DNA of 23,163 nucleotides, from positions 1-23,163 of the IMG/VR virus record IMGVR_UViG_3300028129_000066; one strand, 5' to 3'. Both the position numbers and the translations under genes were made by a program. The notes beneath the pieces are model-generated. The model worked only from the letters and a program-made list of their open reading frames with translations. It made no database searches and was not told the origin of the DNA. This DNA comes from a virus. This document shows, piece after piece, positions 2,995 through 23,017 of this stretch (position 1 is its first letter; the number at the start of each line of letters is the position of its first letter).

Positions 2995-3445
2995 TCTATT
3001 GTTAATCATTTCCTCATGTAGGAGTCCTGAGAAGTTATACAACCTTGCTATAAAAAGAGGTATGACTGTAGAGAATGACTCTATTCCAATTAAAATTGCA
3101 TTCCTTGATTCCACAGTAATCCATTATAAGGATAGCACTATAACAAGCTACAAGATTAACTACAAGGATTCAATCATCTTTAAGACGGTAGTGAACTTTC
3201 CCAAATCTAAAGTTGAGGTCAGGCAAGAAGAAAAAACTAAGCGTAAAGCAATTGACGTTGCTGGAGAAGTAAAAGTAGCTAAAGAAAAAACTAAGCGTGT
3301 AGAGGTACGTAAAGCAGCAAAAATAGAAGTTAAAACAATCAAATCTCAGTCTAGCTGGTGGAAGTTTTGGTTAGGATTCATTTTAGGTTTAATTGTTTAT
3401 TTTCTTATTATTAACTTAGCAAATAAAATACAAAAACTATTATGA
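2975..3445 (+). CDS. unimolecular spanin (u-spanin), lipoprotein with C-terminal membrane anchor
   Basis: The 156-residue product has both membrane anchors needed for a u-spanin. The N-terminus is a lipoprotein signal with lipobox ISSC (Cys15) after MKVLLISLLLI, placing that end in the outer membrane after lipidation. A C-terminal hydrophobic span (residues about 131-149, FWLGFILGLIVYFLIINLA) would sit in the inner membrane. The middle is a charged periplasmic region with two copies of EKTKR (residues 86-90 and 104-108). Spanins fuse inner and outer membranes in the last step of lysis in Gram-negative hosts. Here one protein replaces the Rz/Rz1 pair, as in phage T1 gp11. Overlaps with both neighbours (20 bases upstream, ATGA downstream) and the adjacent amidase support this. 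Confidence 0.82.
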   Translation: MKVLLISLLLIISSCRSPEKLYNLAIKRGMTVENDSIPIKIAFLDSTVIHYKDSTITSYKINYKDSIIFKTVVNFPKSKVEVRQEEKTKRKAIDVAGEVKVAKEKTKRVEVRKAAKIEVKTIKSQSSWWKFWLGFILGLIVYFLIINLANKIQKLL

Positions 3446-4119
3446 ATACTTTAGACACATCAAAAATTTTTCAAGCCCTTTTAAATACTAAAGAATATCT
3501 TAGAGAAGCTACATCAAAAAAACAAATTGTATTACATCATACTGCAGGATCATCTTCAGCAAAAAACGTAGCTACAGAATGGAACCGTGACAAAAGAGGT
3601 AGAATAGCAACTTGTGTATTGATCTCAGGAAAAGGTGCAAAAAATTCATATGATGGTGAAATTGTACAATGTTTTTCATCAAAATATTGGGCATATCATT
3701 TAGGAGTTAAATCTGAAGTTTTTAAAGCTAAAGGTTTATCTTGGAAAAACTTGGATAAATTATCAATTGGGATAGAAATATGTAACTGGGGACAGTTAGA
3801 AAAAAGAGGCAGTAAATTTTACAATTACGTAGATAGTGAGGTTCCTTTAGAAGAGGTCTGTGAATTAGATATAGCTTATAAAGGACATAAGTATTTTCAT
3901 GCATATACAGATGCTCAAATAGAATCAGTAAAACAATTACTTATTTTTTGGAAAATAAACTATGGAATTGATATTACATATAAGCCTGAAAATATGTGGC
4001 AGGTCTCAACAGAAGCTCTTAAAGGATTATCAGGCTTATATTCCCATAATTCATATAGGAAAGATAAAATAGATGTAAGTCCTCAGCCTAAATTAATTAA
4101 AATGTTAAAAAGACTTTAA
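3442..4119 (+). CDS. endolysin: N-acetylmuramoyl-L-alanine amidase (Amidase_2/PGRP fold)
   Basis: This 225-residue protein has the zinc amidase layout of the T7 lysozyme/AmiD family. 'IVLHHTAGSS' supplies the first ligand His32. 'YWAYHLGV' at residues 83-90 matches the conserved (W/Y)HxG site with His86. 'LSIGIEICNWG' (107-117) is the core strand. The late 'LYSHNSYRKDKIDVSPQP' supplies His202 and, in place of the usual Cys or Asp ligand, Asp211. The enzyme would cut the bond between N-acetylmuramate and L-alanine in peptidoglycan. There is no signal peptide, so release would depend on the holin upstream. It is the last gene of the lysis cassette, and a strong terminator follows 23 bases after the stop. 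Confidence 0.88.
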   Translation: MNTLDTSKIFQALLNTKEYLREATSKKQIVLHHTAGSSSAKNVATEWNRDKRGRIATCVLISGKGAKNSYDGEIVQCFSSKYWAYHLGVKSEVFKAKGLSWKNLDKLSIGIEICNWGQLEKRGSKFYNYVDSEVPLEEVCELDIAYKGHKYFHAYTDAQIESVKQLLIFWKINYGIDITYKPENMWQVSTEALKGLSGLYSHNSYRKDKIDVSPQPKLIKMLKRL

Positions 4120-5750: not shown

Positions 5751-6563
5751 ATGAGTATAGTATTTAATGCAAAGGATCATTCATATAATAATATTGACCC
5801 TAATGACAATATAAAATGGACAAGTGTAACAACACTTATTTCAAAGTTTAAGTTACCTTTTGAGCAAAAAAAGATTGCTACATCTGTATCAAAAAAGAAA
5901 AGTTCTAAGTGGTACGGAATGACACCTGAAGAGATTATAACCATTTGGGAAAATGAAGCTCTTAGAGCTACTACTGTGGGTACATACTATCATAACCAAA
6001 GAGAAGCTGACATATGTAGTTTTGCTTCAATGGATATTGAAGGAACAACCATTCCTGTAATAGTACCATTGCCTGAAAAAGATGGTTTAAAATATGCACC
6101 TTCACAAAAGCTAACAGATGGTGTTTATCCTGAACATTTGGTTTATTTAAAATCTGCAGGTATCTGTGGTCAGGGTGATTTAATTGAAGTAGTTAATGGT
6201 TATATAAATATTATTGATTACAAGACAAATAAGAAAATTGAAAAAGAATCATATAAAGACTGGGAAGGTATTTCTAAAAAAATGTTAGCCCCTATTGGTC
6301 ATTTAGATGATTGTAATTTTAATCACTATTCTTTACAATTGAGTATTTATATGTATATTATGATTAAGCATAATCATAGATTAAAACCAGGAAAAATGCT
6401 TATTCACCATATAGAATTTGAAACTGAAGGTGAAGATAAATATGGTTATCCTATAAATAAATATGATGTAAATGGTGATCCGGTAGTAACTTCTGTAACA
6501 CCTATGGAGATTCCTTATTTAAAGGATGAAGTTATCTCAATTATTAAAAGTCTACAAGCATGA
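5751..6563 (+). CDS. PD-(D/E)XK superfamily nuclease (RecB/Cas4-like core)
   Basis: The 270-residue protein has the ordered motifs of RecB-type PD-(D/E)XK nucleases. His81 lies in 'VGTYYHNQRE', Glu128 in 'YPEHLVY', 'GQGDLIEV' gives Asp143, 'NIIDYKTNK' gives Asp156 and Lys158, and the later 'SLQLSIYMYI' supplies the Q-x-x-x-Y motif (Gln196, Tyr200). Asp143, Asp156 and Lys158 would bind metal and cut DNA. No four-cysteine iron-sulfur cluster is visible, which argues against true Cas4. Such nucleases in phages process recombination ends, degrade host DNA or trim packaging substrates. Here the gene sits two positions before the terminase, so a role in DNA maturation is possible. It overlaps the next gene by four bases (ATGA). 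Confidence 0.82.
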   Translation: MSIVFNAKDHSYNNIDPNDNIKWTSVTTLISKFKLPFEQKKIATSVSKKKSSKWYGMTPEEIITIWENEALRATTVGTYYHNQREADICSFASMDIEGTTIPVIVPLPEKDGLKYAPSQKLTDGVYPEHLVYLKSAGICGQGDLIEVVNGYINIIDYKTNKKIEKESYKDWEGISKKMLAPIGHLDDCNFNHYSLQLSIYMYIMIKHNHRLKPGKMLIHHIEFETEGEDKYGYPINKYDVNGDPVVTSVTPMEIPYLKDEVISIIKSLQA

Positions 6564-7077: not shown

Positions 7078-9291
7078 ATGGCAGGAGGAATAAATTATTC
7101 AGAGATACCTACATGGAAAGATGGTGTAGAAATAACTACTAGTTTTGATACTAGAGAGGAGTTTTATGATTACATTTTTGAAAAGGTTTTTAAAATCCCT
7201 GGTGAATATGGTTTTAATGAAACTACAAATAAGCTTTTTAATGCGGAAGCTCAAAACTTTAATAAGAATAAAGTTTACTGTACTGCACCTTTTAAGTCAA
7301 AAGACTTTATTCACTATTGGGATAGTAATAAAGAAAAGTGTAGAAAAGGTTACTTAATAATTGAAGGTGATAATCATTGGTTTTTAACTAGAGATTATTA
7401 TATGTGGTTGAATTACCTTCCTATTTTTGACAAAGAAGAACAAGATTTCGGGTTTGCAAAAATAAGAGATGCACAATATCATATGGCTTTGTATGAATTG
7501 CTTGCAGAATTAAATTATGAACATGCTGTAATATTAAAAAAAAGACAAATTGCTTCTTCATATTTTCACGCAGCAAAACTTATAAATCAAGTATGGTTTG
7601 AAAAAGGTGTTACTTTAAAGATGGGTGCTAGCCTTAAAGATTATATCAATGAGAAAGGAACCTGGAAATTTTTAGATGAGTATGCTTCTTTTTTAAATGA
7701 GCATACAGCTTGGTATAGACCTATGAATCCTAATAAGGTTATGATGTGGCAACAAAAGATTGAAACCAGGCAAGATAATAGAAAATTAGAAAAAGGTCTT
7801 AAAGGTACTATTCAAGGAATGTCTTTTGAAAAAGATCCAACAAATGGTGTTGGGGGTCCTGTAAAATACTTCTTCCATGAGGAAGCAGGTATTGCTCCTA
7901 AAATGGATGTTACTTTTGGGTATATTAAACCAGCATTAAAGTCTGGGATGATTACAACCGGATTATTTATAGCGGCAGGCTCAGTAGGTGATCTTGATCA
8001 ATGTGTTCCTTTAAAAAATATGCTTCTTAATCCTGAATCGAATCAAATATATGCAGTTGAAACTGACTTACTTGATAAAAAAAATACATTAGGTAAAACT
8101 GGTCTATTTATACCTGAACAATGGTCAATGCCTCCACATATAGATAAGTATGGTAATTCACTTGTAAATAAAGCTTTAGAAGCTTTAAATGAATATTTTG
8201 AGAAGATTAAAAAAGAAATGGAACCCGCTGATTATCAACTTGAGATATCTCAGCATCCAAGAAATATAGAAGAAGCTTTTGCTTTTAGAAAAGAATCTAA
8301 GTTTCCAGCACATCTTGTAAATGCACAATTAAAAAGAGTTGAAGATAAACTATATCCTTACCAACTACTTGAATTGTCTAGAGATGCCAGTGGAAAATTA
8401 ATAGCTAAAGAATCTAATAAGTTACCAATAAGGGAGTTTCCGATATCAAAGAAAACTGAAGATAAAACTGGTTGTCTAGTTGTCTGGGAAAAACCAGTTC
8501 CTGATCCTAGCTTTGGAATGTACTATGCTAGTATTGACCCGGTTGCGGAGGGAAAGACTACAACTTCTGATTCACTATGTTCAATTTATGTTATGAAAGC
8601 GCCTATTGAGGTTACTAAAGTAACTGTTGGAGAAGCTAAAACACATGTTGAAGAAAGTAAAATTGTTGCTGCTTGGTGTGGTAGATTTGATGATATAAAC
8701 AAAACACATGAAAGGCTTGAATTAATAATTGAATGGTACAATGCAAGAACTGTTGTTGAAAACAATATATCTCAGTTTATTAATTATATGATCTTTAAGA
8801 AGAAGCAACGCTATCTTGTACCAAGAACTGACATTCTTTTCTTAAAAGACTTAGGTGCAAATGCAAGTGTACATCAAGAATATGGTTGGAGAAATACAGG
8901 TACATTGTTTAAAAATCACATGATCAGTTATGCAATTGAATTTCTTAGAGATGAGCTTGATACAATTACAAAAGAGGATGGTACAGTTGTTAAGATCAGA
9001 TATGGTATTGAAAGAATACCTGATCCAATGTTACTAAAAGAAATGCAAGCTTATGTAGATGGTTTAAATGTGGATAGGTTGGTGGCTTTTTCTGCTTTAG
9101 TTTCTTTCTTGAAAATATTGGAAGCAAACATAGGTTATCAGAAAAGAGTGGTACATGACGAAGCAAGTAAAAACTTGCAAAAGTCTGAAAATTTATATAA
9201 ATTAAATAAGAGTCCATTTAAACATATGGGTAGTGCCAAAGGTCTTAATAAACAAGGAATGAAGAGATCAGCATTTAAAAATTTAAAATAA
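7078..9291 (+). CDS. terL: terminase large subunit (TerL), ATPase and nuclease
   Basis: The 737-residue protein has the two-domain TerL layout. The ATPase domain shows a degenerate Walker A-like region 'ILKKRQIASSYFHAAK' (about residues 152-167). Its Walker B-like strand 'VKYFFHEEAG' (262-271) carries the paired Glu268/Glu269, and the coupling-motif region is 'MITTGLFIAAGSVGD' (291-305). The C-terminal RNase H-like nuclease has Asp487 in 'YYASIDPVAEG', Glu561 in 'TVVENNIS' and a late acidic site near Asp666 ('VDRLVAFSAL'). TerL docks on the portal, pumps DNA into the procapsid with ATP and cuts the concatemer. The portal gene follows after five bases. The length is at the long end for TerL, as in large Bacteroidota phages. 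The P-loop lacks a canonical GKT/GKS, which is common in TerL. Confidence 0.9.
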   Translation: MAGGINYSEIPTWKDGVEITTSFDTREEFYDYIFEKVFKIPGEYGFNETTNKLFNAEAQNFNKNKVYCTAPFKSKDFIHYWDSNKEKCRKGYLIIEGDNHWFLTRDYYMWLNYLPIFDKEEQDFGFAKIRDAQYHMALYELLAELNYEHAVILKKRQIASSYFHAAKLINQVWFEKGVTLKMGASLKDYINEKGTWKFLDEYASFLNEHTAWYRPMNPNKVMMWQQKIETRQDNRKLEKGLKGTIQGMSFEKDPTNGVGGPVKYFFHEEAGIAPKMDVTFGYIKPALKSGMITTGLFIAAGSVGDLDQCVPLKNMLLNPESNQIYAVETDLLDKKNTLGKTGLFIPEQWSMPPHIDKYGNSLVNKALEALNEYFEKIKKEMEPADYQLEISQHPRNIEEAFAFRKESKFPAHLVNAQLKRVEDKLYPYQLLELSRDASGKLIAKESNKLPIREFPISKKTEDKTGCLVVWEKPVPDPSFGMYYASIDPVAEGKTTTSDSLCSIYVMKAPIEVTKVTVGEAKTHVEESKIVAAWCGRFDDINKTHERLELIIEWYNARTVVENNISQFINYMIFKKKQRYLVPRTDILFLKDLGANASVHQEYGWRNTGTLFKNHMISYAIEFLRDELDTITKEDGTVVKIRYGIERIPDPMLLKEMQAYVDGLNVDRLVAFSALVSFLKILEANIGYQKRVVHDEASKNLQKSENLYKLNKSPFKHMGSAKGLNKQGMKRSAFKNLK

Positions 9292-9296
9292 AATTT

Positions 9297-12044
9297 ATGC
9301 AAGTATTGAATGCTTTACAAATGAAGAATGGAGCTAAAACTAAAGAAAATAGAGTTGGTTCAATTACTCAACCATTACAGTTTATCTCTAAAAAAGATAA
9401 AGACCAGGAATGGGCTGCATGGAATATAGATTGGTTAGAGTGGAATGGTTTAAAACAACTGTCTCATAATGCACGCAGACTTCAGAAAAATTATAAACTA
9501 GCAAAAGGTGTAATTGATAAATCAGATTATATTGTTGAGGAAGATCAAGAATATGCAGATGTGATTGATTTACTTACAGCTGAAGATGAATCAGCATTAG
9601 AATTAAAATTTTACCCAATAATACCAAATGTGGTAAATGTATTGACATCAGAGTTTGCAAAAAGGTCAAGTAAAATGACTTACAAAACTGTTGATGAATT
9701 TTCATACAATGAAATGCTTGAGAAAAAAAGACAAATGATTGAGGATACTTTAGTTCAAGATGCTCAAATGAAAATCATGGGTTCTTTAGTTGAACAAGGT
9801 CTTGATCCAGAAGATGAGGAATTCAAAGCTGAGTTAAATCCTGAAAAAATTAAAACACTTCCTGAGATTGAATCATTCTTCAAAAAAGATTATAGATCTA
9901 CTGTAGAACAATGGGCATCTCACCAACATGAAGTGGATGTTGAAAGATTCAAAATGGATGAACTTGAAGAAAGAGGCTTTAAAGATATGCTTATTACTGA
10001 TAGAGAATTCTGGCATCTAAGAATGATGGAAGATGATTATGAAGTAGAATTATGGAATCCTCTACTTACATTTTATCATAAATCCCCAGATGCTCGTTAT
10101 ATATCTCAATCTAATTATGTTGGTAAAACAGATATGTTTAGTGTTGCAGATATCATTGATAAGTATGGTTATTTAATGACTGAAGATCAACTTGAGTCGT
10201 TGGAAGCAATTTATCCTATAAAAGCTGCAGGTTTTAATATTGGTGGTCAACAAAATGATGGATCATTTTATGATAGTACTAAATCACATGAGTGGAATAC
10301 TACAGGTCCTTCTTTAGCAATGAGACAATACACATCAATGCAAAATTCTGTTAGTGATCCTAATGATGTTATAAGTCAAATACTAAGTCAAGGTGAAGAC
10401 TATAATACTAAAAATCATAATAACTTATTAAGAGTAAGTACTGTTTATTGGAAATCACAAAGAAAACTTGGACACCTAACAAAGATAAAAGACAACGGAG
10501 AAGTAATCACTGATATTGTAACGGAAGACTATAAAGTTACAGACAATCCTGTATATGATACAAGGTTGTTTAAAAACAGAACATCTGAAAACTTAGTTGC
10601 TGGTGAACATATAAGTTGGATTTGGATAAATGAAGTTTGGGGAGGTATTAAAATAGGTCCTAACATGCCTTCATATTGTGGAATGAATTCTCCAGGTGGT
10701 TTTAACCCAATATATATTGGAATTGACAGTAAAGAAGTTGGTCCACTTAAGTTCCAATTTAAAGGAGATAATTCATTGTATGGTTGTAAACTTCCTGTAG
10801 AAGGGGCTATATTTTCTGATAGAAATACAAAATCTACAGCTCTTGTTGATTTAATGAAACCTTTTCAAATAGGTTTTAATATTGTAAATAATCAGATAGC
10901 TGATATTTTAGTTGATGAGTTGGGTACAATTATTATGTTAGATCAAAACACATTACCAAGACATTCATTAGGTGAAGACTGGGGTAAAGGAAATTTATCT
11001 AAAGCATACGTTGCAATGAAAAACTTTGGAATGCTTCCTTTAGATACAAGTATTGCCAACACAGAAAATGCTTTAAATTTCAACCATTTTCAAAAACTTG
11101 ATCTTGAACAAACTAATAGATTAATGTCAAGAATTCAACTAGGTAACTATTTTAAACAACAAGCATATGAAGTAGTAGGTGTTTCCCCTCAACGAATGGG
11201 TCAACAAATATCACAGGAAACTGCAACAGGTGTAGAGCAAGCTGTTAATTCATCATATGCTCAAACAGAAACTTATTTCATACAGCATTGTGATTATTTA
11301 ATGCCTAGAGTTCATCAAATGAGAACAGATTTAGCTCAGTATTATCATTCAACTAAACCGAGTATGCGTTTACAGTATATGACTTCTGCTGAAGAAAAAG
11401 TTAATTTTCAATTAAATGGTACAGACTTGTTGTTAAGAGATCTTAATATTTATGTTACAACTAAAGCTAACTATAGATCTGTACTTGAGCAAATGAAACA
11501 ACTTGCTGTTAATAATAACACAACTGGTGCATCTGTTTATGATCTTGGTAAAATTATACAATCAGATAGTATTGCAGACTTAAATTCTAGTCTTAAAGAT
11601 TCAGAACAAAAAATACAACAGTCTAAACAAGCAGAAATGCAACAACAGCAGCAAATGCAACAAGAAGCTATTGCTGCAAAAGCTGAAGAAGAAAAACTTA
11701 AAAGAAATCATGAAGATATTCGTGATGAGAAAAATAGACAGCGTGATATTTTAGTTGCTGAAATAAGAGCTGCAGGTTATGGTTCTGGACAAGATGTTAA
11801 TAATAATCAGATTTCCGATTATCAAGATGCAATGAAAGATATACGTCAAGGTGAACAATATCAATCTCAAAACCAACTTGAGAGAGAGAAAGAAAATAAC
11901 AAATTGAGAATGCATCAAGATAAAAACAATATTGAAAGAGAAAAAATTAATGCTCAAAAAGAGATAGCTGACAAACAGTTACAAATAGCTAGAACTAACA
12001 AAAACAAGTATGATGTAAAACAACCAAAGAAAGATAGTAAATAG
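9297..12044 (+). CDS. portal protein
   Basis: This 915-residue protein lies directly after TerL and has portal character. An N-terminal mixed region contains 'WNIDWLEWNGLKQL', then 'FYPIIPNVVNVLTSEFAKR' (about residues 104-122), typical of the start of the portal body. A long core follows, with a C-terminal part rich in helices from about residue 690. The last 150 residues form a Q/K/E-rich coiled-coil tail (QQQQQMQQEAIAAKAEEEK) interrupted by 'AAGYGSGQDVNNNQISDYQD', a calcium-loop-like element. Portals form a twelve-subunit ring at one vertex, through which DNA enters and leaves. The assignment rests on position, size and architecture rather than one diagnostic motif. The stop is TAG, and a 114-base gap with no gene follows before the next unit. 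Confidence 0.85.
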   Translation: MQVLNALQMKNGAKTKENRVGSITQPLQFISKKDKDQEWAAWNIDWLEWNGLKQLSHNARRLQKNYKLAKGVIDKSDYIVEEDQEYADVIDLLTAEDESALELKFYPIIPNVVNVLTSEFAKRSSKMTYKTVDEFSYNEMLEKKRQMIEDTLVQDAQMKIMGSLVEQGLDPEDEEFKAELNPEKIKTLPEIESFFKKDYRSTVEQWASHQHEVDVERFKMDELEERGFKDMLITDREFWHLRMMEDDYEVELWNPLLTFYHKSPDARYISQSNYVGKTDMFSVADIIDKYGYLMTEDQLESLEAIYPIKAAGFNIGGQQNDGSFYDSTKSHEWNTTGPSLAMRQYTSMQNSVSDPNDVISQILSQGEDYNTKNHNNLLRVSTVYWKSQRKLGHLTKIKDNGEVITDIVTEDYKVTDNPVYDTRLFKNRTSENLVAGEHISWIWINEVWGGIKIGPNMPSYCGMNSPGGFNPIYIGIDSKEVGPLKFQFKGDNSLYGCKLPVEGAIFSDRNTKSTALVDLMKPFQIGFNIVNNQIADILVDELGTIIMLDQNTLPRHSLGEDWGKGNLSKAYVAMKNFGMLPLDTSIANTENALNFNHFQKLDLEQTNRLMSRIQLGNYFKQQAYEVVGVSPQRMGQQISQETATGVEQAVNSSYAQTETYFIQHCDYLMPRVHQMRTDLAQYYHSTKPSMRLQYMTSAEEKVNFQLNGTDLLLRDLNIYVTTKANYRSVLEQMKQLAVNNNTTGASVYDLGKIIQSDSIADLNSSLKDSEQKIQQSKQAEMQQQQQMQQEAIAAKAEEEKLKRNHEDIRDEKNRQRDILVAEIRAAGYGSGQDVNNNQISDYQDAMKDIRQGEQYQSQNQLEREKENNKLRMHQDKNNIEREKINAQKEIADKQLQIARTNKNKYDVKQPKKDSK

Positions 12045-13454: not shown

Positions 13455-15071
13455 ATGAGTACACCAGTTTTAAACAACGGTATCTTTTTGCGTGATACAG
13501 CATATAATGCTACATCACACATTGATTCTTACCATTTGCAAAATATGTTGAAAGACTCTCAACCTACAGACATGGGTCCTGTAGATCTTTGGGCTATGGC
13601 TCAAAAAGTTGAGATGCCTCTTTATCAATTATCAAGCTTTGGTGGTAAAAATATAATCAATGTTGATAATGCACGTGGAGAGTACAAATGGCAAACACCA
13701 TTAAGTATTGATCTTCCTTATATTGTTGAGGATATTGAACCAGCTAATACTTCTAAAGGTATTGACGGAACAACATTTAAGATTAAGTTAAACAAACGTG
13801 AGTTTGGTCATGGTGACATGATTACTTATGATAAATACAATGGAGTTGAGCTTTTTATTACAGCAGAAGATATCTTACCAGTAGGTGATGGATTTATCTA
13901 TACTGTACAATTAGTAAACAACGACAATTACAAGTATTTAGAATCTGCTTATTTAGCAAATGGTACTAAGTTCTTCAGAAAAGGTTCTGCAAGAGGTGAG
14001 TATGGAGAAAGATTCTCTGATATCTCAACTAGTGCTGGATACCGTGAATTCTACAATCACGTAGGTGGAGCTGAAGCACACGTTCATTACTCAGTTTCTT
14101 CTAGAGCTGATTTAATGATCAAAGGTGGAATGAATGCTGACGGAACTGTTCCTGTTACTGAGATCTGGAGAAACTTTGATAAAAACATTGATCCTTCTGT
14201 TTCATCTTTAGATGATATGGTTAAGACAATGGGTAAAGACAAAGTGAAAAAAGCTTTTGATAATGGTGATTTATCTAGAACTTTCTTAACTAACCTTGAA
14301 GCTGCGCATCTTTCTAAGATTGCTACAGATATTGAGACTTACCTTATGTGGGGTCATGGTGGTAAAGTTAAGCAAGATGGGCCAGATGATATTAGATTAT
14401 CAGTAGGTTTATGGAAGCAGTTAGACAACTCATTCAAAAGAGTATATAACAAAAATAACTTCACTTTAGATTTATTTAGAGGAGAATTATATAACTTCTT
14501 CAACGGTAAAGTTGAATTCCAAGGGCCAGACCCAAAACGTTCTTTAGTTGTTCAAACTGGAATGGGTGGAATGAAAATGGTAAATGAAGCTATTAAACAA
14601 GAAGCAGTATCTTCAGGTTTATTAATTCAAGCTTCTGATATCGGTGCAATCACTGGTAAAGGAATGGACTTGAACTTTGGTTTCTCTTACACATCTTATG
14701 TAATTCCTTTCTTAGCAAATGTTAAGTTTGTATTGAATCCTGCATTTGATAATGTTCATACAAATGATGTTGAAAACCCAATCGTTGATGGTTTCCCTTT
14801 ATCATCTTACTCTTTTGTTATATTTGATGTAACAGACAATGTAAATGACAATATCTATATGTTAAAATTATCTTGGGATAACCAATTAAAATGGTTCTAC
14901 CAAAATGGTACTATGGATTATATGGGTAGATCACAAGGTTTTGCATCTTCTGGAAACTTCAATGGATACAGAGTTATGATGTCACAAACTATGCCTGCTA
15001 TCTGGGTTAAGGATCCAACTAAAGTATTGAAAATTGTAATGAGAAATCCAATTACTGGAGGTTCATTCTAA
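13455..15071 (+). CDS. major capsid protein
   Basis: The 538-residue protein is called major capsid protein from its place after portal and scaffold-like genes, its size and its expression signs. The N-terminal region (MSTPVLNNGIFLRDTAYNAT) is followed by a mixed alpha/beta chain with 'WQTPLSIDLPYIVEDIEPAN', a central 'LEAAHLSKIATDIETYLMWG' helix and a C-terminal 'SQTMPAIWVKDPTKVLKIV' strand, consistent with an HK97-like fold but not proof of it. Codon choice differs from neighbours: TTC, AAC and ATC are much more frequent than in TerL or portal, a common sign of very high expression. A strong terminator 17 bases after the stop fits an abundant transcript. No prohead protease gene is visible in the window. 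Confidence 0.82.
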   Translation: MSTPVLNNGIFLRDTAYNATSHIDSYHLQNMLKDSQPTDMGPVDLWAMAQKVEMPLYQLSSFGGKNIINVDNARGEYKWQTPLSIDLPYIVEDIEPANTSKGIDGTTFKIKLNKREFGHGDMITYDKYNGVELFITAEDILPVGDGFIYTVQLVNNDNYKYLESAYLANGTKFFRKGSARGEYGERFSDISTSAGYREFYNHVGGAEAHVHYSVSSRADLMIKGGMNADGTVPVTEIWRNFDKNIDPSVSSLDDMVKTMGKDKVKKAFDNGDLSRTFLTNLEAAHLSKIATDIETYLMWGHGGKVKQDGPDDIRLSVGLWKQLDNSFKRVYNKNNFTLDLFRGELYNFFNGKVEFQGPDPKRSLVVQTGMGGMKMVNEAIKQEAVSSGLLIQASDIGAITGKGMDLNFGFSYTSYVIPFLANVKFVLNPAFDNVHTNDVENPIVDGFPLSSYSFVIFDVTDNVNDNIYMLKLSWDNQLKWFYQNGTMDYMGRSQGFASSGNFNGYRVMMSQTMPAIWVKDPTKVLKIVMRNPITGGSF

Positions 15072-15157: not shown

Positions 15158-16165
15158 ATGGAATTAACACAAACACAATTATTAAGCGGGACTAAAGCTA
15201 AAATAGCTATTAAACCGTACTTTGATGGGTCAGCATCAAACATGGGTCTTGAGAATTATGGTATTTCTCTATTTGACGGAGTTACTCACATGGAGCAATT
15301 AGCTTGTTTAGAACAAAATGGTGTAGTAAGGTATCTTACAGGATTGAATGAATTTGCTCCTGAAATAAAAAGATTACCTGAAGAAGAGAGAAACGCTAAA
15401 GTAAAGCAAATCAGAACCCATATAGTAGAACTTGAAAAAGAGTTAGCTTCTAATATACTTGATCCAGAAGATTCTGATTTCTGGAATAAAGTTAAATTAT
15501 TACAACCAAACAATAAAGATTTTTGGAATAAAATTACATTATCATGTGGAAATGATCCTGTTTTTTTAAACCCTGAAGATCCTTATGATAGAATTAAATT
15601 ACTTGCTATTGAAGCGGGTGGATTTGCTATTGTTGCAAAAAGTTATGAAGATGCAAGATCAAAAGTAAAACCACCAAAGTTTTATTTAGATAAAGCTGAA
15701 CAAACAGCAGGTATTAAAACTGAATACAAAAAATTGAAAAATAAAGCTCTTGCTGAATTACAAAAACTTTATGATAAAAATAGTACTAAACTATTCTTTA
15801 TTGCAAAAGCCGTAGATACAGCAAGTGTACAATATAAAAAGAATACACCAAATGACATCATATATGATATGATGGATACACACATTAATGGTAATGGTAC
15901 TGAAGGTAACAAAGAAAGAGCTGCTAAAGGATTCTTAGAAGCTGTAGCTTTGGATATGGAAACATTAAAAATTAAAGCAATTGTAAAAGATTCTGTATTC
16001 TTTAAATATATAGTTACTAAATCTGATGGTCATATTTACCATTCTAAAACAGGTACTGTACTAGGTAGAAATGTTTCAGATGTAGTTGAATTCTTAAAAA
16101 ATCCTTTACACGAGGATATCCTTAAAGATCTATCAACTGAAGCTGAAAAAATATGGAGCATGTAA
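15158..16165 (+). CDS. probable virion structural protein downstream of capsid (335 aa)
   Basis: I do not recognise a family. The 335-residue protein is charged and mostly helical, starting MELTQTQLLSGTKAKIAI. Residues 107-117 and 121-131 form a short internal repeat (DFWNKVKLL and DFWNKITLS, 14 residues apart), followed by a related 'NPEDPYDRIKLLAIEAGGF'. The C-terminal part has 'SDGHIYHSKTGTVLGRNVSDVVEFLKNP', which reads as a small beta-hairpin plus helix. Its place between capsid and connector genes suggests a head-completion, decoration or internal head protein, but nothing in the sequence decides this. Leader 'AACCAACAAAAA' before the ATG is the A-rich type seen throughout the window. 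Confidence 0.7.
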   Translation: MELTQTQLLSGTKAKIAIKPYFDGSASNMGLENYGISLFDGVTHMEQLACLEQNGVVRYLTGLNEFAPEIKRLPEEERNAKVKQIRTHIVELEKELASNILDPEDSDFWNKVKLLQPNNKDFWNKITLSCGNDPVFLNPEDPYDRIKLLAIEAGGFAIVAKSYEDARSKVKPPKFYLDKAEQTAGIKTEYKKLKNKALAELQKLYDKNSTKLFFIAKAVDTASVQYKKNTPNDIIYDMMDTHINGNGTEGNKERAAKGFLEAVALDMETLKIKAIVKDSVFFKYIVTKSDGHIYHSKTGTVLGRNVSDVVEFLKNPLHEDILKDLSTEAEKIWSM

Positions 16166-16205: not shown

Positions 16206-16907
16206 ATGTTAAATAGCACAATATCTATAAAAGTAAAGCAAAGACTTAATAAGTTAGATAGCAATGATTATGACAACTTAGAATGTTGGCAGATTGTAGA
16301 AGCTTTCAATAAGGCTCAAGTAGAATGGACAAGAAGACAACTTCACGGTATAAACATTGTTAAAGAAGGTGATGAGCAATCCACCAGAAGAATTGATGAC
16401 CTGCAAGTCTTATTAACGCCTTTGAAACTTGATCCTAAGTTGGAGGACGTTTATTATTTTGATGCTATACCGGATAACTATTTACAGTGGAAAAGGTTAG
16501 ATGTATATGCTATTAAAGATTGTTGTGATGAGCCAAGAAGAATGAAGACTTATTTAGTTGAAGAGGCTAACATTAATGATCTATTAGCAGATGTATCTAA
16601 AAAACCTAGTTTTGAGTGGGCTGAAACATTTGTAACTATTGAAAATAATAGACTAAATGTTTACTCTAACAATACCTTTGAAATAAGTAAAGTTGAATTA
16701 ACATATTACAGACAACCAAGAAGAATTGAAATCTTAAATTGTGTAGATCCTTATACTAATTTAGTAACAACTATTGATGTTGAATCTGAGTTTAAAGATG
16801 ATATAATTGAATTAATAATAGATGAGGCGGTAAGTATTCTTGCTGGTGATATTGAATCTAACAATCAATTTTCTAGAGGTACTCAAACAAGTGAAAGAAA
16901 TAATTAA
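16206..16907 (+). CDS. probable head-tail connector/portal-ring adaptor protein (233 aa)
   Basis: The 233-residue protein begins with a helical region containing 'CWQIVEAFNKAQVEWTRRQL' (about residues 27-46). It continues with 'YYFDAIPDNYLQWKRLDVYA', a beta-rich middle with 'NRLNVYSNNTFEISKVELTYYRQPR', and a final helix 'DDIIELIIDEAVSILAGDIE'. A helical bundle with a small beta sandwich and a C-terminal helix is what one expects of proteins that stack under the portal, and such genes lie after the capsid gene in podovirus-like and crAss-like genomes. The arrangement looks familiar from Bacteroidota phages, but the exact family is not certain. The tail of the gene runs into a 7-base tandem repeat that spans the stop codon. 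Confidence 0.68.
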   Translation: MLNSTISIKVKQRLNKLDSNDYDNLECWQIVEAFNKAQVEWTRRQLHGINIVKEGDEQSTRRIDDLQVLLTPLKLDPKLEDVYYFDAIPDNYLQWKRLDVYAIKDCCDEPRRMKTYLVEEANINDLLADVSKKPSFEWAETFVTIENNRLNVYSNNTFEISKVELTYYRQPRRIEILNCVDPYTNLVTTIDVESEFKDDIIELIIDEAVSILAGDIESNNQFSRGTQTSERNN

Positions 16908-16928: not shown

Positions 16929-17384
16929 ATGGATAAACCTAGAATGTTAAAACGTAGTGTTGATAAAAAAACTGAATCAACATACTACTCTAACACTAAT
17001 AGTTCAGTTGAATACATGACAGCTGATTGTGTTACTGAATTAATGAATGCTGCTACATCTTTTCACATGCTTCATTTAAAGATTACAGGTTTGGGTAGTT
17101 ATGCTGCACATACAGCTTTAAATGATCTTTATGATGCTTTACCTGGTCATGCTGATACAATAGCAGAAGGTTTCCAAGGAGCTTCTGAAAAATTACTTGA
17201 ATGCACGGATGCTGCACCGAGAACTGTAAAAACAGTTGAGGAAGCTATTTCTTATCTAAGAGAACTTTCTTCTAAAATTAGTAAACTGCAAAGTGTTATG
17301 CCTTATACAGAAATAGTAAACACCTTAGACACAATCAAAGATTCAATAAATACAGCTAAGTATAAATTAATATTTCTTAAATGA
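16929..17384 (+). CDS. Dps/ferritin-like helical protein (151 aa)
   Basis: Residues 46-82 strongly resemble the core of Dps proteins: 'HLKITGLGSYAAHTALNDL' followed by 'YDALPGHADTIAEGF', compared with the Dps pattern 'H-W-N-(8 to 9)-H-x-x-x-D ... H-x-D-x-x-A-E-R'. Spacing matches the E. coli Dps ferroxidase residues: His49 and His61 are 12 apart, Asp76 is 15 after His61, and Glu80 is 4 after Asp76. The fifth position (Asp67 in E. coli) is Asn65, with Asp66 next to it. The rest is helical, so a four-helix bundle is likely. Dps proteins form 12-mers that store iron and protect DNA. In this phage the gene sits among head and neck genes, so the protein may be packaged, structural or expressed to protect DNA; all are inference. 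A phage family of unknown function (DUF5856) may be the same, not checked. Confidence 0.68.
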   Translation: MDKPRMLKRSVDKKTESTYYSNTNSSVEYMTADCVTELMNAATSFHMLHLKITGLGSYAAHTALNDLYDALPGHADTIAEGFQGASEKLLECTDAAPRTVKTVEEAISYLRELSSKISKLQSVMPYTEIVNTLDTIKDSINTAKYKLIFLK

Positions 17385-17446: not shown

Positions 17447-18946
17447 ATGAGTTATTTTAATAGTGCTTTTCAAAAAGCGTTTGTAGGTACAGGTGGTTTT
17501 ACTGACTTAGCTGGTGGTAAACTAGGTACTACTTCAAACATTTTAGCTACAGGTGAGTTTGCATTTGTAGATCCAAAAACTTGGACAATCCAAGATACTG
17601 CTACACCTCCAACAGGATGTTGCCCGCTAGTTTTAGCTGCAGGTAGTTTGTATACTAAAGACAAAGTAGGAACGCATGGTGGTTACTTGGAATCAAGTAA
17701 ATCTAAAATCATCAATCCTAAGTATGTAAGTAAGTTTTACAGAGTTGATCCAAATGCTGCACAACCAAACGTTATTCACGTTGGTGATACACCATTTACT
17801 AACACTCCTCTTTTAACTATTGATAACGCAGGTGTTGCTTTTACAGATGGTACTTTTACAGGTGTTGCTACAACAACTGCTGGTGCTGGTACAGGTTTAA
17901 CTGTTGACGTTACAATTGCAGGTGGTGTTGTTACAGCTGTTTCTATTGATAATCCTGGTACAGGTTATGTTAATGGTGATGTTGTTACTATTACTGATGG
18001 TACAGCAACAACTGATGCTGATTTTTCACTTGCTTTAGAAGCAGGTTGTAGAAAAGATTTCTTATGTGATGAGACTTATAATTTACGTTTAGATGTAAAA
18101 GGTTCTCCAGTATTAAGGTTCTTAAATCGTAATTCTTATGTTACTGCTGATGCTTACACAGGATGTTGCCCAACAGGTGCTACTTCTCCTACTGTAGTTG
18201 ATTCTACATTAGTAATGATAGAATTTGCTAAAAGAATTATGGATAATGCACTAGTTTCTCCATTTGTTGCTTTAACAGTAACTACTGAAGCTAATGAATT
18301 ATTATATGCTCCAGGAACTGATACTTCAGGTTTAGTTGCTCCAACAGGATACACTATTGGTGGAACTTGGGATGATTATGTATCTCCAGGACATACTGTA
18401 GGTGCTTATGCTGGTTTAACTATTACAGGTGCTTATGTAGATACTAAGTTTGGTGATTGTACATTCCAACCTTCTGACTTCTATGAAAAAGAGCCAGTTA
18501 AGTTATATGCATCTTTAGTTGATACAAACGGGGACCCATGTGAATTTGAAGGTTTATGTGTAGCAACTGAATGTGAAGGTTTACAAGCAATGGGATTAGG
18601 TGAGTCAGTATTGAGAGATGTTGTTTTATCTGAGTCTTATGCTCAAAACTTTTTATCAACAGATTTACGTATCCGTGAGATTACTCAAGGTGATGACATG
18701 TTATCTGCAATAAGTAGAAGATCTTCTTACACAAGATATTATATTCAACATAATGTTCCACGTTTCAATAACCCATCAGGTGTTTTTGATAATGATCAAT
18801 ATTTATTAGAAATCATTACAAGTGGTGTAGACGCAACATTTGAAACATTTGTTACAACTTGGTTAGATAACTGTGGTACAGGATGTGAAGGTTTAGAAAT
18901 CAATTCTGCAGTAACTACATGTACTCCAATTGTACCTTTACCATAA
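17447..18946 (+). CDS. probable major virion structural protein with inserted beta-rich domain (499 aa)
   Basis: I infer a structural protein from location, size and sequence type; the family name is unknown to me. The N-terminal part contains 'TPPTGCCPLVLAAGSLYTKD' and 'VSKFYRVDP'. Residues about 124-197 are a Gly/Thr/Val-rich unit with 'AGAGTGLTVDVTIAGG' and 'NPGTGYVNGDVVTI', a beta-rich module also met in phage tail proteins and fibres. The core resumes at 'CRKDFLCDETYNLRLDVKG' (201-219), and 'YTGCCPTG' repeats the CCP motif. The C-terminal part has 'RYYIQHNVPRFNNPSG' and 'FVTTWLDNCGTGCEGL'. About a dozen cysteines are present, unusual for a phage structural protein. A strong terminator follows. 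Tail tube, sheath-like or large neck protein are all possible. Confidence 0.7.
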   Translation: MSYFNSAFQKAFVGTGGFTDLAGGKLGTTSNILATGEFAFVDPKTWTIQDTATPPTGCCPLVLAAGSLYTKDKVGTHGGYLESSKSKIINPKYVSKFYRVDPNAAQPNVIHVGDTPFTNTPLLTIDNAGVAFTDGTFTGVATTTAGAGTGLTVDVTIAGGVVTAVSIDNPGTGYVNGDVVTITDGTATTDADFSLALEAGCRKDFLCDETYNLRLDVKGSPVLRFLNRNSYVTADAYTGCCPTGATSPTVVDSTLVMIEFAKRIMDNALVSPFVALTVTTEANELLYAPGTDTSGLVAPTGYTIGGTWDDYVSPGHTVGAYAGLTITGAYVDTKFGDCTFQPSDFYEKEPVKLYASLVDTNGDPCEFEGLCVATECEGLQAMGLGESVLRDVVLSESYAQNFLSTDLRIREITQGDDMLSAISRRSSYTRYYIQHNVPRFNNPSGVFDNDQYLLEIITSGVDATFETFVTTWLDNCGTGCEGLEINSAVTTCTPIVPLP

Positions 18947-19014: not shown

Positions 19015-19557
19015 ATGGCAAAACATACATTAAGTTTAGAGATACCTACTGTTTTCAATGATTGTATATTATCAATTTTAGATACAAGTATTTATTCAGA
19101 GATGATACCTGTTACATGCCCAACATTGAATGTTACAGTTCCAGGTTTTATTTATTCAGTGGAAAAAACAATTACTCCTGGATCAAATACTATACTTACA
19201 GCTTGTGATTTAGATTTACAAACTACTGATTGTGGAACAGTATTTAGTTCAATTCCTGATGGTGTATATGTTATTAAATATAGTGTTTCACCTAATGATC
19301 AGGTTTATGTTGAATATAATCATTTGCGTATAAGTAAAGCATTAAATCAATATAATGATATACTATGTGATTTAGATTTACAAGCATGTGAACCTTCTAC
19401 ATTTGTTAAAGACAAGTTAGATAAACTCATGTCAGCAAAGATGTATCTAGACGCTGCAAAAGCAAAAGTAGAAACTTGTCATGAACCTCAAAGAGGGATG
19501 ACATTATATAATTATGCAATAAAAATTATGGATAAATTACAATGCCATAATTGTTAA
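19015..19557 (+). CDS. cysteine-containing probable tail or neck protein (180 aa)
   Basis: I do not recognise a named family. The 180-residue protein has a beta-rich first half (HTLSLEIPTVFNDCILSILD, CPTLNVTVPGF, IPDGVYVIKYSVSPNDQVYVEYNH) and a helical second half (FVKDKLDKLMSAKMYLDAAKAKVETC) ending 'DKLQCHNC'. The beta part looks like a single immunoglobulin-like or jelly-roll sandwich. Nine cysteines are spread along it, including a repeated 'CDLDLQ' (residues about 64-69 and 118-123). It is the first of five consecutive Cys-rich genes, all probably virion components. Translation must depend on readthrough of the terminator just upstream or on a promoter I cannot see. A tail-completion role is inferred from neighbours only. 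Confidence 0.65.
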   Translation: MAKHTLSLEIPTVFNDCILSILDTSIYSEMIPVTCPTLNVTVPGFIYSVEKTITPGSNTILTACDLDLQTTDCGTVFSSIPDGVYVIKYSVSPNDQVYVEYNHLRISKALNQYNDILCDLDLQACEPSTFVKDKLDKLMSAKMYLDAAKAKVETCHEPQRGMTLYNYAIKIMDKLQCHNC

Positions 19558-19708: not shown

Positions 19709-21460
19709 ATGATAGGTGGTAATCATAGTATATTTAAGTCTAGGCTTAAAGGTGTAGAAGTAGACTTACTCAATGATAATGTTGATGAAACAGGTTTTTT
19801 TGATAAGCATTATTATGACGGATCTTATAATGGCCAATACTTATATGAACTAGCTGTTTGTTGTAAAACAGGTGGTTCTTATATTGTTGAGATTTTAGTT
19901 CCTACACCTTTATCTGAACCTTATCAAGGCACTGTTTATAGATATATTGCTACTACAGATTATGTAGATCCTAATGGTAATGTATTACGTCAATTTGATT
20001 GTGGAGAAATCAGGCAAATCCCTACACCATCTGGTGATGATCCTACACCAATTTCAAATGTCTCATTTGAAATAGTTACAGCACTTGAAGGTGCTTGTAA
20101 AAAATGTTGTTCAGCACAAGCAACATTTGAAAGAAGATGTGATGGCACATTGATAAATCTTAATATAAGTAATGCTGATTTTACAATATACTCAGATCCT
20201 AAGAAATTTTATAAGTATACAGGATTAGTAGTTTTAATTGATAGTAATAGTGTTCCAGTATATACAAATGATTTCTTACGTTTAATTTCTAAATCTAAAG
20301 ATGCTAGCAATACTGCTGATTCATTAGATATTAGTAATGTAGAAGAATGGACATGTGAAGAATTTGATAATGATTGTGGAATTTGTCAAACTTATTATAA
20401 AGTAGTTGCTTGTGATACAAACATAACTGAAGAATATTGTACAGATCAAGATCTTTCAGCATATGTAGGTGTAGGAGCAATCAAAATAGTTGTTGATAAT
20501 CAACCATCAGATATATGTTGGACTGTTGAAGAAAGTTTAAGTTGTGAATTTCCTGTAACAATAACTGTGTCTGAAGAATTTGCTGAATGTATAGATTGTT
20601 TAACACCTTTAAATTATAGACTTGAATCTTGTGCAACTGATGATAATACAGTAATTTATACAAGTACTGATTTATCTCAATATGAAGGTAGAACTGTAAA
20701 TCTTGAAGGTTATGGTAATTGTTTCTTTGTAGAAATATTTGAAGAGCGTGTTCCATCAACTGTACAAGTTAATGTAACAAATGACTATGATAATTGTGTA
20801 GAATGTCCTAAACCAAGATACCAATTAACTAATTGTGAAGATTCTGAAGATTTAATTGTAACAACAACTAATCTTGAGGCACAAATAGGTTCAGTAATTA
20901 AAATAAGTTTTTATCCTGAAAAGTGTTGGACTGTTTCTGTAACTGATGATAATACTTCTGATGATCTTGTAATACTTACTGATACATTCACTACATGTGA
21001 AGAGTGTTTACCAGTGGTAACATGTGATTGTACTATTGTTAAAAATACTAGTTTAGCAGCAAAAGAATTTCAATATGTGGATTGCGATGATGTATTACAA
21101 GGTATTACCTTACAAGCTGGTCAAAGTACACCAAAAATTTGTGCTAAAGAATGGATATTTCCTGATGGTTGGACTGATGTGACATGCATTCAAAACTTTG
21201 GAGAATGTGTAGATAACATATGTCCTCCTCCTGCAATTCCTTTTAGAAAAATTAAACCTGGATATAATACTCCTGGATGTACAATTGAGTATTATGAAAG
21301 AGTTACATGTAAGTTTGCAGATTTAATGTATAATGAAGTCATGCAAAAAAGATATGGTGTTAGCCCTTGTTGTCCTGAAGATGAATTCTATAAAATACAT
21401 ATTAAACAACAACTATTAGAGATGAAAGCAATTACTGATCCAAATGCTTGTAAAATATAA
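19709..21460 (+). CDS. virion protein with tandem cysteine-rich repeats (583 aa)
   Basis: The N-terminal 130 residues are a beta-rich region (YNGQYLYELAVCCKTGGSYI) of unknown type. Three repeats of about 65 residues follow at roughly 228-297, 302-366 and 370-433. Each opens with an aromatic-x-(V/L)-x-x-C strand (YKVVAC, YRLESC, YQLTNC), has a mid Cys followed by an aromatic (CW, CF, CW), and closes with CxxC (CIDC, CVEC, CEEC). A more divergent copy may precede them at 131-226. The C-terminal region (about 505-583) has 'KIKPGYNTPGCTIEYYERVT', 'RYGVSPCCPEDEF' and a helical end. Such repeats look like small disulfide- or metal-stabilised beta modules in a tail spike or fibre shaft. Placement between the neck genes and the C1q-ended fibre supports a tail role. 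No enzyme motif is seen. Confidence 0.72.
   Translation: MIGGNHSIFKSRLKGVEVDLLNDNVDETGFFDKHYYDGSYNGQYLYELAVCCKTGGSYIVEILVPTPLSEPYQGTVYRYIATTDYVDPNGNVLRQFDCGEIRQIPTPSGDDPTPISNVSFEIVTALEGACKKCCSAQATFERRCDGTLINLNISNADFTIYSDPKKFYKYTGLVVLIDSNSVPVYTNDFLRLISKSKDASNTADSLDISNVEEWTCEEFDNDCGICQTYYKVVACDTNITEEYCTDQDLSAYVGVGAIKIVVDNQPSDICWTVEESLSCEFPVTITVSEEFAECIDCLTPLNYRLESCATDDNTVIYTSTDLSQYEGRTVNLEGYGNCFFVEIFEERVPSTVQVNVTNDYDNCVECPKPRYQLTNCEDSEDLIVTTTNLEAQIGSVIKISFYPEKCWTVSVTDDNTSDDLVILTDTFTTCEECLPVVTCDCTIVKNTSLAAKEFQYVDCDDVLQGITLQAGQSTPKICAKEWIFPDGWTDVTCIQNFGECVDNICPPPAIPFRKIKPGYNTPGCTIEYYERVTCKFADLMYNEVMQKRYGVSPCCPEDEFYKIHIKQQLLEMKAITDPNACKI
20390..21007 (+). repeat. three tandem protein-level repeats of about 65 codons
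   Basis: The repeats encode the Cys-rich modules within the 583-aa protein. Identity at the DNA level is low, so the copies are old and diverged while the cysteine and aromatic positions stayed. Confidence 0.7.
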
Positions 21461-21526: not shown

Positions 21527-23017
21527 ATGAAACCGTTAAATTTAGATAGTTCTCCTTGTTCACCTACATCTTCAAACTGTGTCATTTGGCAAGGTCCAGA
21601 CATAGCGTGTATAAATTTATGTAAAGGTGATACAATATCATCAGTTGTTTATAAACTAGCAACTGAGTTATGTACAGTTATGGATACTTTAAAAATATCT
21701 TCATATAACTTAAGTTGTTTTAACTTAACCAATGTTACACCACAAACTTTTCAAGATCTTATAGATTTGATTATACTTAAGGTTTGTGAGTTAGAAACAG
21801 CTAGTGGTAATACAATTGTTATACCTGGAGCTGGTGGTTCACCTACAGATACAATAGTTACAGTTGCTTCTTGCTTTATAGTTGGTACACAAACAACTAT
21901 GAATCTTCAAGATTATGTAACAACAATTGGTACAAAAATTTGTGATTTAATCACAGACATAAGTGTTAATACTAATGCAATAGAAGCATTAGGTATTCGT
22001 GTAACAGATTTAGAAAATGCTACACCTCCTTCATACACTACACCACAAATAACATTAGATGAGGCATTAGCTTCACTCAGCCCTGCTACATTATATAACA
22101 TTGACACTGTTTTAAATGTTTACATTAATGATGTATGGTTTTCTTATGTAGGCGTTACAGGTAGTATTACAGATTTAAGTGATTCAATCATTTATGGTAC
22201 CACTTCTGTAGCTAATAGTGATAATTCTATAACAAATCCTGGTGCTGTAATGAGTGTGCAATATGCTGCTGATTGGATTACAGGACCTACAAAAGTTGCT
22301 GACACATTAAAAAATATATGGACTGCAATAAAAGATATTAGAGGTGGTGTTCCTACACTTACAGTAGATAACTCAGGGAATGTTCAATTTACTCTAACCG
22401 GTTTTCCAGCATATAGTTTGAAGGCTGACGTTGCTTTACCAACAGTTACTATGACTGATGGTGCTACAATTGCTTTTACAGAAACTACTGGTGCACCTGA
22501 TTATGAATTTACAGCTGAGGTTATTCCTTTTAATGGTCTTTTTGTAAGATCTACAGGTGTGGCAATAACAAGTGTTGCAAAAGTTACTCCTTCATTAACA
22601 ACTCTTTTAAATAGTGGATCAAGTGCTACACTTATCTTAGGTACTACAGATTATAATGATGGTGGTACTGGTTATAATCCTACTACAGGTGAATGGACAT
22701 GTCCTGCTAATGGTAGATATAACTTAAGTTTTAATGTATCATTGTCTCACACTACTGATGCTGCAGGATGGCATACTGGTGGATCTGCAGGGATTATTAC
22801 AGCAGGTCTTGTATCTACAAGTAATGTTATATATGCAGCTAATAGTTTTACACCATCAGCAAGTATATCACCTGTTGCAAACATTGCAGGTAATATTGAA
22901 GGTGTTACACTTACTGCAGGTATAGTTATAAAGTTAAAAGTATTAAACTTGACAGGATTTGATTATATCTCAGAAGCAAATGATGTAGCAACAATGTCAA
23001 TACAAAGAATAAAATAA
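21527..23017 (+). CDS. fibre-like protein with C-terminal C1q/TNF-like domain (496 aa)
   Basis: The N-terminal 60 residues are Cys-rich (CSPTSSNCVIWQGPDIACIN, then LCKGD and 'YKLATELCTVMDTL') and probably attach the protein to the virion. Residues about 75-165 alternate helical stretches with 'NTNAIEALGIRVTDLE'-type heptads, suggesting a trimeric coiled coil. A threonine-rich beta shaft follows (VPTLTVDNSGNVQFTLTGF). The last 130 residues (about 365-496) fit the C1q-like jelly roll: 'YNPTTGEWTCPANGRYNLSF' and 'GVTLTAGIVIKLKVLN'. C1q-like trimers are known receptor-binding tips of phage fibres. A host-binding role is inferred. The combination with LamG domains at the other end of the window suggests more than one adhesion protein. 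Confidence 0.75.
   Translation: MKPLNLDSSPCSPTSSNCVIWQGPDIACINLCKGDTISSVVYKLATELCTVMDTLKISSYNLSCFNLTNVTPQTFQDLIDLIILKVCELETASGNTIVIPGAGGSPTDTIVTVASCFIVGTQTTMNLQDYVTTIGTKICDLITDISVNTNAIEALGIRVTDLENATPPSYTTPQITLDEALASLSPATLYNIDTVLNVYINDVWFSYVGVTGSITDLSDSIIYGTTSVANSDNSITNPGAVMSVQYAADWITGPTKVADTLKNIWTAIKDIRGGVPTLTVDNSGNVQFTLTGFPAYSLKADVALPTVTMTDGATIAFTETTGAPDYEFTAEVIPFNGLFVRSTGVAITSVAKVTPSLTTLLNSGSSATLILGTTDYNDGGTGYNPTTGEWTCPANGRYNLSFNVSLSHTTDAAGWHTGGSAGIITAGLVSTSNVIYAANSFTPSASISPVANIAGNIEGVTLTAGIVIKLKVLNLTGFDYISEANDVATMSIQRIK

Follow-up and report, generated by a model that had tools for sequence, protein, structure and literature searches.

The window analysed here is a stretch of 23,163 nucleotides (IMG/VR virus record IMGVR_UViG_3300028129_000066, positions 1 to 23,163). 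It is a fragment of a crAss-like phage and carries a terminase, a portal protein, a major capsid protein (MCP) and a homologue of the ring protein. An open reading frame of 151 amino acids with an ATG start was found on the plus strand at 16929–17384, directly after the ring gene. It encodes a mini-ferritin of the Dps family. The position between its two neighbours is called the slot below.

The capsid operon around the gene

The following genes define the operon.

7078..9291, plus strand: terminase large subunit (phrog_6681, 6e-64)
9297..12044, plus strand: portal protein (phrog_6547, 2e-90)
13455..15071, plus strand: major capsid protein (Crass_capsid PF23898, 2.7e-29)
16206..16907, plus strand: ring (tail-barrel/connector) protein, upstream border of the slot (csAssE-Sib and phi17:2 matches; phrog_29507)
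17447..18946, plus strand: probable capsid auxiliary protein, phicrAss001 gp36-like, downstream border of the slot (fold matches of the model)

The ring gene at 16206 was identified by tblastn, which matched it to the 'ring protein' of csAssE-Sib (1e-6) and to a structural protein of phi17:2 (3e-9). The model of the 17447–18946 product is of moderate quality (pLDDT 65). Its best matches are virion chains of phicrAss001. The icosahedral-capsid chain 7qof_a ranks first, with a Z of 11.5 over 278 residues, and FliD proteins rank lower. According to Bayfield et al., the auxiliary protein gp36 of phicrAss001 is composed of a PH domain and a FliD-like domain (PMC10172136). Since the virion-chain and FliD matches agree with these domains, the modelled product is most likely the counterpart of gp36. 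The gene at 15158–16165 was first taken as the capsid auxiliary protein, and the fold search points to 17447–18946. The original prediction had placed the reading frame between a connector and a large structural gene. This placement was right, with the ring homologue just before it and the capsid-auxiliary-like gene after it.

The ring protein and gp36 of phicrAss001 are consecutive by number (gp35 and gp36). In phi17:2, Lbo-JY46 and csAssE-Sib, the ring gene is followed directly by a large gene, and there is no cage gene between them. Because these related crAss-like phages go straight from the ring gene to a large gene, the Dps gene is an insert within a capsid operon that is conserved.

Among the other genes of the window, 19709–21460 encodes a cysteine-rich protein with repeated ECxxC-like segments, whose homologues at the same position are about 270 to 1414 aa long. 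A laminin-G-like lectin domain (247–744), a holin (2148–2729), an amidase (3442–4119), a PD-(D/E)XK nuclease (5751–6563) and a weak C1q-like domain (21527–23017) are ordinary for a phage.

Fold and metal site of the Dps-family protein

The gene and the features of its folded part are as follows.

16929..17384, plus strand: Dps-family (DUF5856) mini-ferritin gene, 151 aa (PF19174, 4e-16; phrog_858, 9e-20; AlphaFold2 model; Dps fold matches)
16995..17375, plus strand: four-helix bundle core, helices 23–51, 57–86, 103–123 and 127–149 (AlphaFold2 model)
17073..17075, plus strand: His49 codon (E. coli Dps His51), invariant in alignment A1
17109..17111, plus strand: His61 codon (E. coli Dps His63), invariant in A1
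17121..17123, plus strand: Asn65 codon, replacing E. coli Dps Asp67 (Asn 25, Gly 17 in the MCP-selected sample)
17154..17156, plus strand: Asp76 codon (E. coli Dps Asp78), invariant in A1
17166..17168, plus strand: Glu80 codon (E. coli Dps Glu82), invariant in A1

The match to PF19174 (DUF5856) scored 60.2 bits against a cut-off of 34.6, and that to phrog_858 had a value of 8.8e-20. A profile of 14 relatives was compared with solved structures and gave 49 matches, nearly all of them Dps or NapA proteins (best 2.8e-4, NapA). The Pfam Ferritin profile matched 11 of the 14 members (best 5e-4). When the single sequence was searched against PDB with phmmer, the Dps matches were weak, and the best of them (0.089) ranked under a spurious flagellin (0.023). 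Therefore, the alignment profile was needed for the Dps match. The AlphaFold2 model, obtained with 52 non-redundant relatives as input, is a four-helix bundle with a pLDDT of 86.4 and a pTM of 0.77. Its top solved match (VIA) was Dps2 of M. smegmatis (Z 16.6 over 127 residues), and E. coli Dps matched it with a Z of 15.3. The model is thus a ferritin-type bundle that lies closest to Dps among solved structures, and the earlier proposal of a Dps-derived protein is backed by both the fold match and the profile match.

His49, His61, Asn65, Asp66, Asp76 and Glu80 were all found at the positions claimed for them. Their spacings of 12, 15 and 4 equal those of His51, His63, Asp78 and Glu82 in the numbering of E. 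coli Dps. The pattern H-x11-H-x14-D-x3-E was contained in 52 of 200,000 shuffles of the Dps-family protein and in 1 of the 61 reading frames of the window with at least 60 aa, so that this spacing is unlikely to have arisen by chance. It is kept in 14/14 relatives of alignment A1 and in 42/42 Dps of the MCP-selected sample. All full-length Dps of the ring-selected sample carry it except two, both with a shortened spacing. Ligand invariance was taken from these three sets, and a table of motif-selected sequences was set aside. Homologues lacking the pattern, which would have spoken against the prediction, are therefore almost absent across the three samples. The median dN/dS of 0.10 over 190 pairs indicated purifying selection on the gene.

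The fifth ligand of Dps (Asp67 in E. coli) is Asn or Gly in the clade, with a single Asp in the ring-selected sample. It is Gln, Arg, Gly or Asn in the distant P19250A, cta1H496, ctEw122 and CC31 mobD.6. The full inter-subunit site of His51, His63, Asp67, Asp78 and Glu82 is thus represented by four of its five ligands. The bacterial Dps proteins or mini-ferritins (E. coli Dps, M. smegmatis Dps2, H. pylori NapA) have in common with the phage protein the four-helix bundle, the His/His/Asp/Glu inter-subunit site with the same spacing and a basic N-terminal tail. In contrast, Asp67 is changed to Asn or Gly, Trp52 to Leu and Arg83 to Gly in the phage protein, its family is found in phages only and its gene belongs to a capsid operon. 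Considering the replaced Asp67 and the four remaining ligands, the protein is classified as a divergent, phage-specific branch of the Dps family (DUF5856) rather than a canonical Dps, with a metal site that is reduced but conserved. We infer that it would assemble as a 12-mer cage and oxidise Fe(II).

A single Dps-family match was obtained among 84,980 species genomes of cellular organisms (L317). This is a crAss-like contig that was binned with a Chitinophagaceae MAG and may give a hint at the host group. The host of the clade probably belongs to the Bacteroidota.

Exchange of the cage and retention of the N-terminal leader

Among the relatives selected by MCP, 43 of 43 slots in view were filled (42 Dps, one ferritin). 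The selection by a distant ring protein gave 74 complete slots, of which 71 were filled (61 Dps, 10 ferritin) and 3 were empty. Some contigs are in both samples, and their counts are not to be added. The occupant is mostly Dps, sometimes a true ferritin and rarely both. The three empty slots indicate that some phages can do without the cage. In these (L289, L295, L296), the ring gene stands directly before the auxiliary-like gene. Tandem cages are seen in L191, L192 and L197 (about 7968–9080), where a ferritin precedes Dps and each has a basic leader.

The slot of L172 holds a true ferritin (PF00210, 1.6e-24; PDB 3qz3, 1.7e-22), as do the slots of other loci. This ferritin and its relatives share all eight ferroxidase residues with bacterial non-heme ferritin (FtnA; PDB 3qz3), and the eight residues are kept in 28 of 28 unique slot ferritins. 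They differ from FtnA in having the phage tag and a linker before the ferritin domain. A catalytically intact ferritin of a different cage geometry can thus replace Dps, which argues that iron handling, and not a structural interface, is kept. With four of five ligands present and all eight ferroxidase residues kept in the replacing ferritins, the Dps-type protein is likely still to bind iron. The original prediction had left a choice between iron binding and remodelling for a structural job; the former is likely on the four ligands, and a purely structural job is opposed by the intact ferritins that replace Dps.

Loci with different cages were found on nearly identical backgrounds. L279 (ferritin) and L281 (Dps) share about 98–99% identity on both flanks. 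For the exchange pair L184 and L029, the identity is about 95% upstream, and for L194 and L168 it is 84–96%, in pieces. In the three close pairs, homology stops 27–35 nt into the gene, right after ...LKR. In a fourth and more diverged pair (L198/L171), it is lost just upstream of the start codon. On the ring tree, the 24 ferritin leaves require at least 18 changes of cage type (with shuffled labels, mean 22.4, range 18–24). Exchange between Dps and ferritin is therefore frequent, since cage type is scattered over the tree almost like shuffled labels. Change counts of tag classes on the same tree were discarded because the classes were too fuzzy (LQR was scored as LKR). Related ferritins are also encountered away from the slot. 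In L199 and L205 they lie upstream of a distant terminase, and the others are in L217, L219–L224 and L226–L234, which are loci without crAss-like marker matches.

The part of the gene that remains in these exchanges is its beginning.

16929..16955, plus strand: N-terminal basic tag MDKPRMLKR, residues 1–9 (conservation, swap junctions, permutation test)
16956..16994, plus strand: variable and probably disordered linker, residues 10–22 (pLDDT below 50 at 10–23; alignments)

The leaders of slot ferritins resemble the tag of the window (MEAKPRMLKRP, MEKPRILKRP, MAEQPRNLLKR). A distant part of the clade has another leader, again on both cages (MQKISRxxIFS on Dps, MQKIARPTIFS on ferritin). The ferritin-versus-Dps similarity of residues 1–13 follows ring identity with an r of 0.67 (permuted mean 0.24, sd 0.11; 0 of 2000 permutations). 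On the other hand, the similarities of the linker (r –0.08) and of the core (r –0.22) do not follow it. After redundancy was removed, the correlation between tag and ring identity over 22 ferritin loci was 0.62 (0 of 2000). The result indicated that the leader goes with the phage lineage rather than with the cage. When tag similarity was correlated with neighbouring genes to find the partner of the tag, the ring gene, the 17447 gene and the gene at 19015 did about equally well, the three being confounded by linkage. Some tags match their own lineage poorly. Of the ORFs with the tag pattern, 128 encode Dps or ferritin, and the remaining 18 are mostly dissimilar.

Cage genes of this family are also placed elsewhere. 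In a distant lineage (L021, 3692–12132; also L019, L020, L022 and L023), the Dps-family gene overlaps and directly follows the portal gene and has no LKR tag. The order in L021 is portal, Dps, a 371-aa protein, a scaffold-like and a capsid-like protein, with roles read from order and sequence. A Dps-like gene follows the portal gene in ctEw122. Three 'prohead protease' proteins of uncultured phages in BFVD (A0A6J7WPK9, A0A6J7WIS1, A0A6J7XDU5) have a region matching the Dps-like fold of the protein studied here. Some other DUF5856 genes are located outside head modules, and the gut crAss-like phage cr106_1 has an annotated DpsA among tRNA genes, away from its capsid genes.

Possible roles of a tagged iron cage

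We propose that the gene product is the subunit of a Dps-type cage that would oxidise iron, and that its gene occupies a dedicated slot of the capsid operon. The cage in this slot is exchangeable, either Dps or a 24-mer-type ferritin, and the tag stays with the lineage. Through the tag, the cage would be attached to a partner specific to the phage lineage, which is most likely a protein of the virion or of its assembly. The cage could then travel inside the particle or along with it, and bind and oxidise Fe(II). In this way, packaged DNA or DNA entering a cell may be shielded from Fenton damage, and/or the next cell may receive iron-handling capacity. Because cages are swapped while the tag tracks the lineage, the selected trait is probably iron chemistry together with tag-mediated attachment to a phage-specific partner. 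A putative attachment to the virion is our best guess. The full reading, a cage anchored by its tag to a virion or assembly component, seems to us evenly balanced between being right and wrong. The more specific picture, in which interchangeable Dps and ferritin are packaged or displayed on virions of a large environmental crAss-like clade through a lineage-specific N-terminal docking peptide, is put forward tentatively.

The location in the virion, at which the original prediction had hinted, is made more plausible by the fixed slot in the capsid operon and by the tag kept through cage swaps. The flanking genes, assigned as virion genes, count for it, and the recurring placement in head modules (L021, ctEw122) and the 'prohead protease' matches of BFVD are supporting. 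Against it count the DUF5856 genes outside head modules and the DpsA of cr106_1 among tRNA genes. The lost Asp67 ligand, the three empty slots and the tags poorly matched to their lineage count against the proposed explanation as a whole.

The capsid-operon position can also reflect late expression only. The cage would then be made with the capsid proteins, stay unpackaged in the cell, remove Fe(II) and H2O2 and protect phage DNA, with the tag as a DNA-binding tail. The tag is basic, and so are the N-terminal tails with which some Dps, including E. coli Dps, bind DNA. Other family members lie outside head genes, and PMC8008677 proposes that phage Dps protect anaerobic hosts from oxidative damage. 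However, the position in the capsid operon is fixed in nearly all members, and the tag is lineage-specific in its sequence and not merely in its charge. We regard this intracellular role as possible, though less likely than the anchored cage.

The tag could instead be a feature of translation or recombination, in which conserved DNA sets expression or a crossover point and the peptide has no binding role. The exchange junctions near the start codon and the dominance of one codon per residue in the tag would fit this. However, the amino acids of the tag are kept, in contrast to the diverging codons behind it. Synonymous changes are seen in places (TTA/CTT/CTA, AAA/AAG) and the spacing to the ring gene varies. 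Together, these points make this explanation improbable. A helical bundle remodelled into a neck or shell part without iron chemistry would suit the lost equivalents of Asp67, Trp52 and Arg83 and the structural neighbours, but it is very improbable in view of the four ligands conserved under strong constraint and of the replacing ferritins, which are catalytically intact and have another cage geometry.

Phage Dps as such are already known from PMC8008677, for Gratiaviridae and other gut phages, and from the cr106_1 annotation; these too are Dps of tailed phages, including Crassvirales. That paper treats them as accessory stress enzymes, and its passages on them do not mention a Dps/ferritin exchange or a shared tag. 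The open-access literature gave no description of a slot in which Dps and ferritin can be swapped under a common tag, no paper naming the DUF5856 family and no paper on ferritin together with Crassvirales. The slot in the capsid operon, the interchange of Dps and ferritin and the lineage-specific leader are the new elements. Crassviruses carry non-structural cargo proteins in capsid and tail, as described for phicrAss001 (PMC10172136). That cargo differs in its large size and in its presumed unfolding during ejection, and the text of that paper names neither Dps nor ferritin. The ferritin-like cargo of encapsulins offers an analogy, with a ferritin-type protein, a short terminal peptide and a gene beside an HK97-fold shell. 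In contrast, the peptide here is N-terminal and the shell is a real phage capsid.

If the more specific picture of docked, interchangeable cages is true, each particle would carry iron-oxidising capacity or an iron store. Phages would then have a natural equivalent of the ferritin cargo of encapsulins, and iron borne by virions would have a molecular basis. The finding of one position with two different iron cages and a retained phage tag suggests that the selected function, an attached iron cage, is separable from any one protein. Iron in virions (the 'Ferrojan horse' idea) becomes testable in one cultured phage, and the slot may offer a natural system to load ferritins onto HK97-fold capsids.

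Another basic leader, KKSLKKAQ-like, was seen at the start of small ORFs in L005, L012, L015, L027, L062, L066, L137 and L157. This small-protein family is perhaps a second tagged group.
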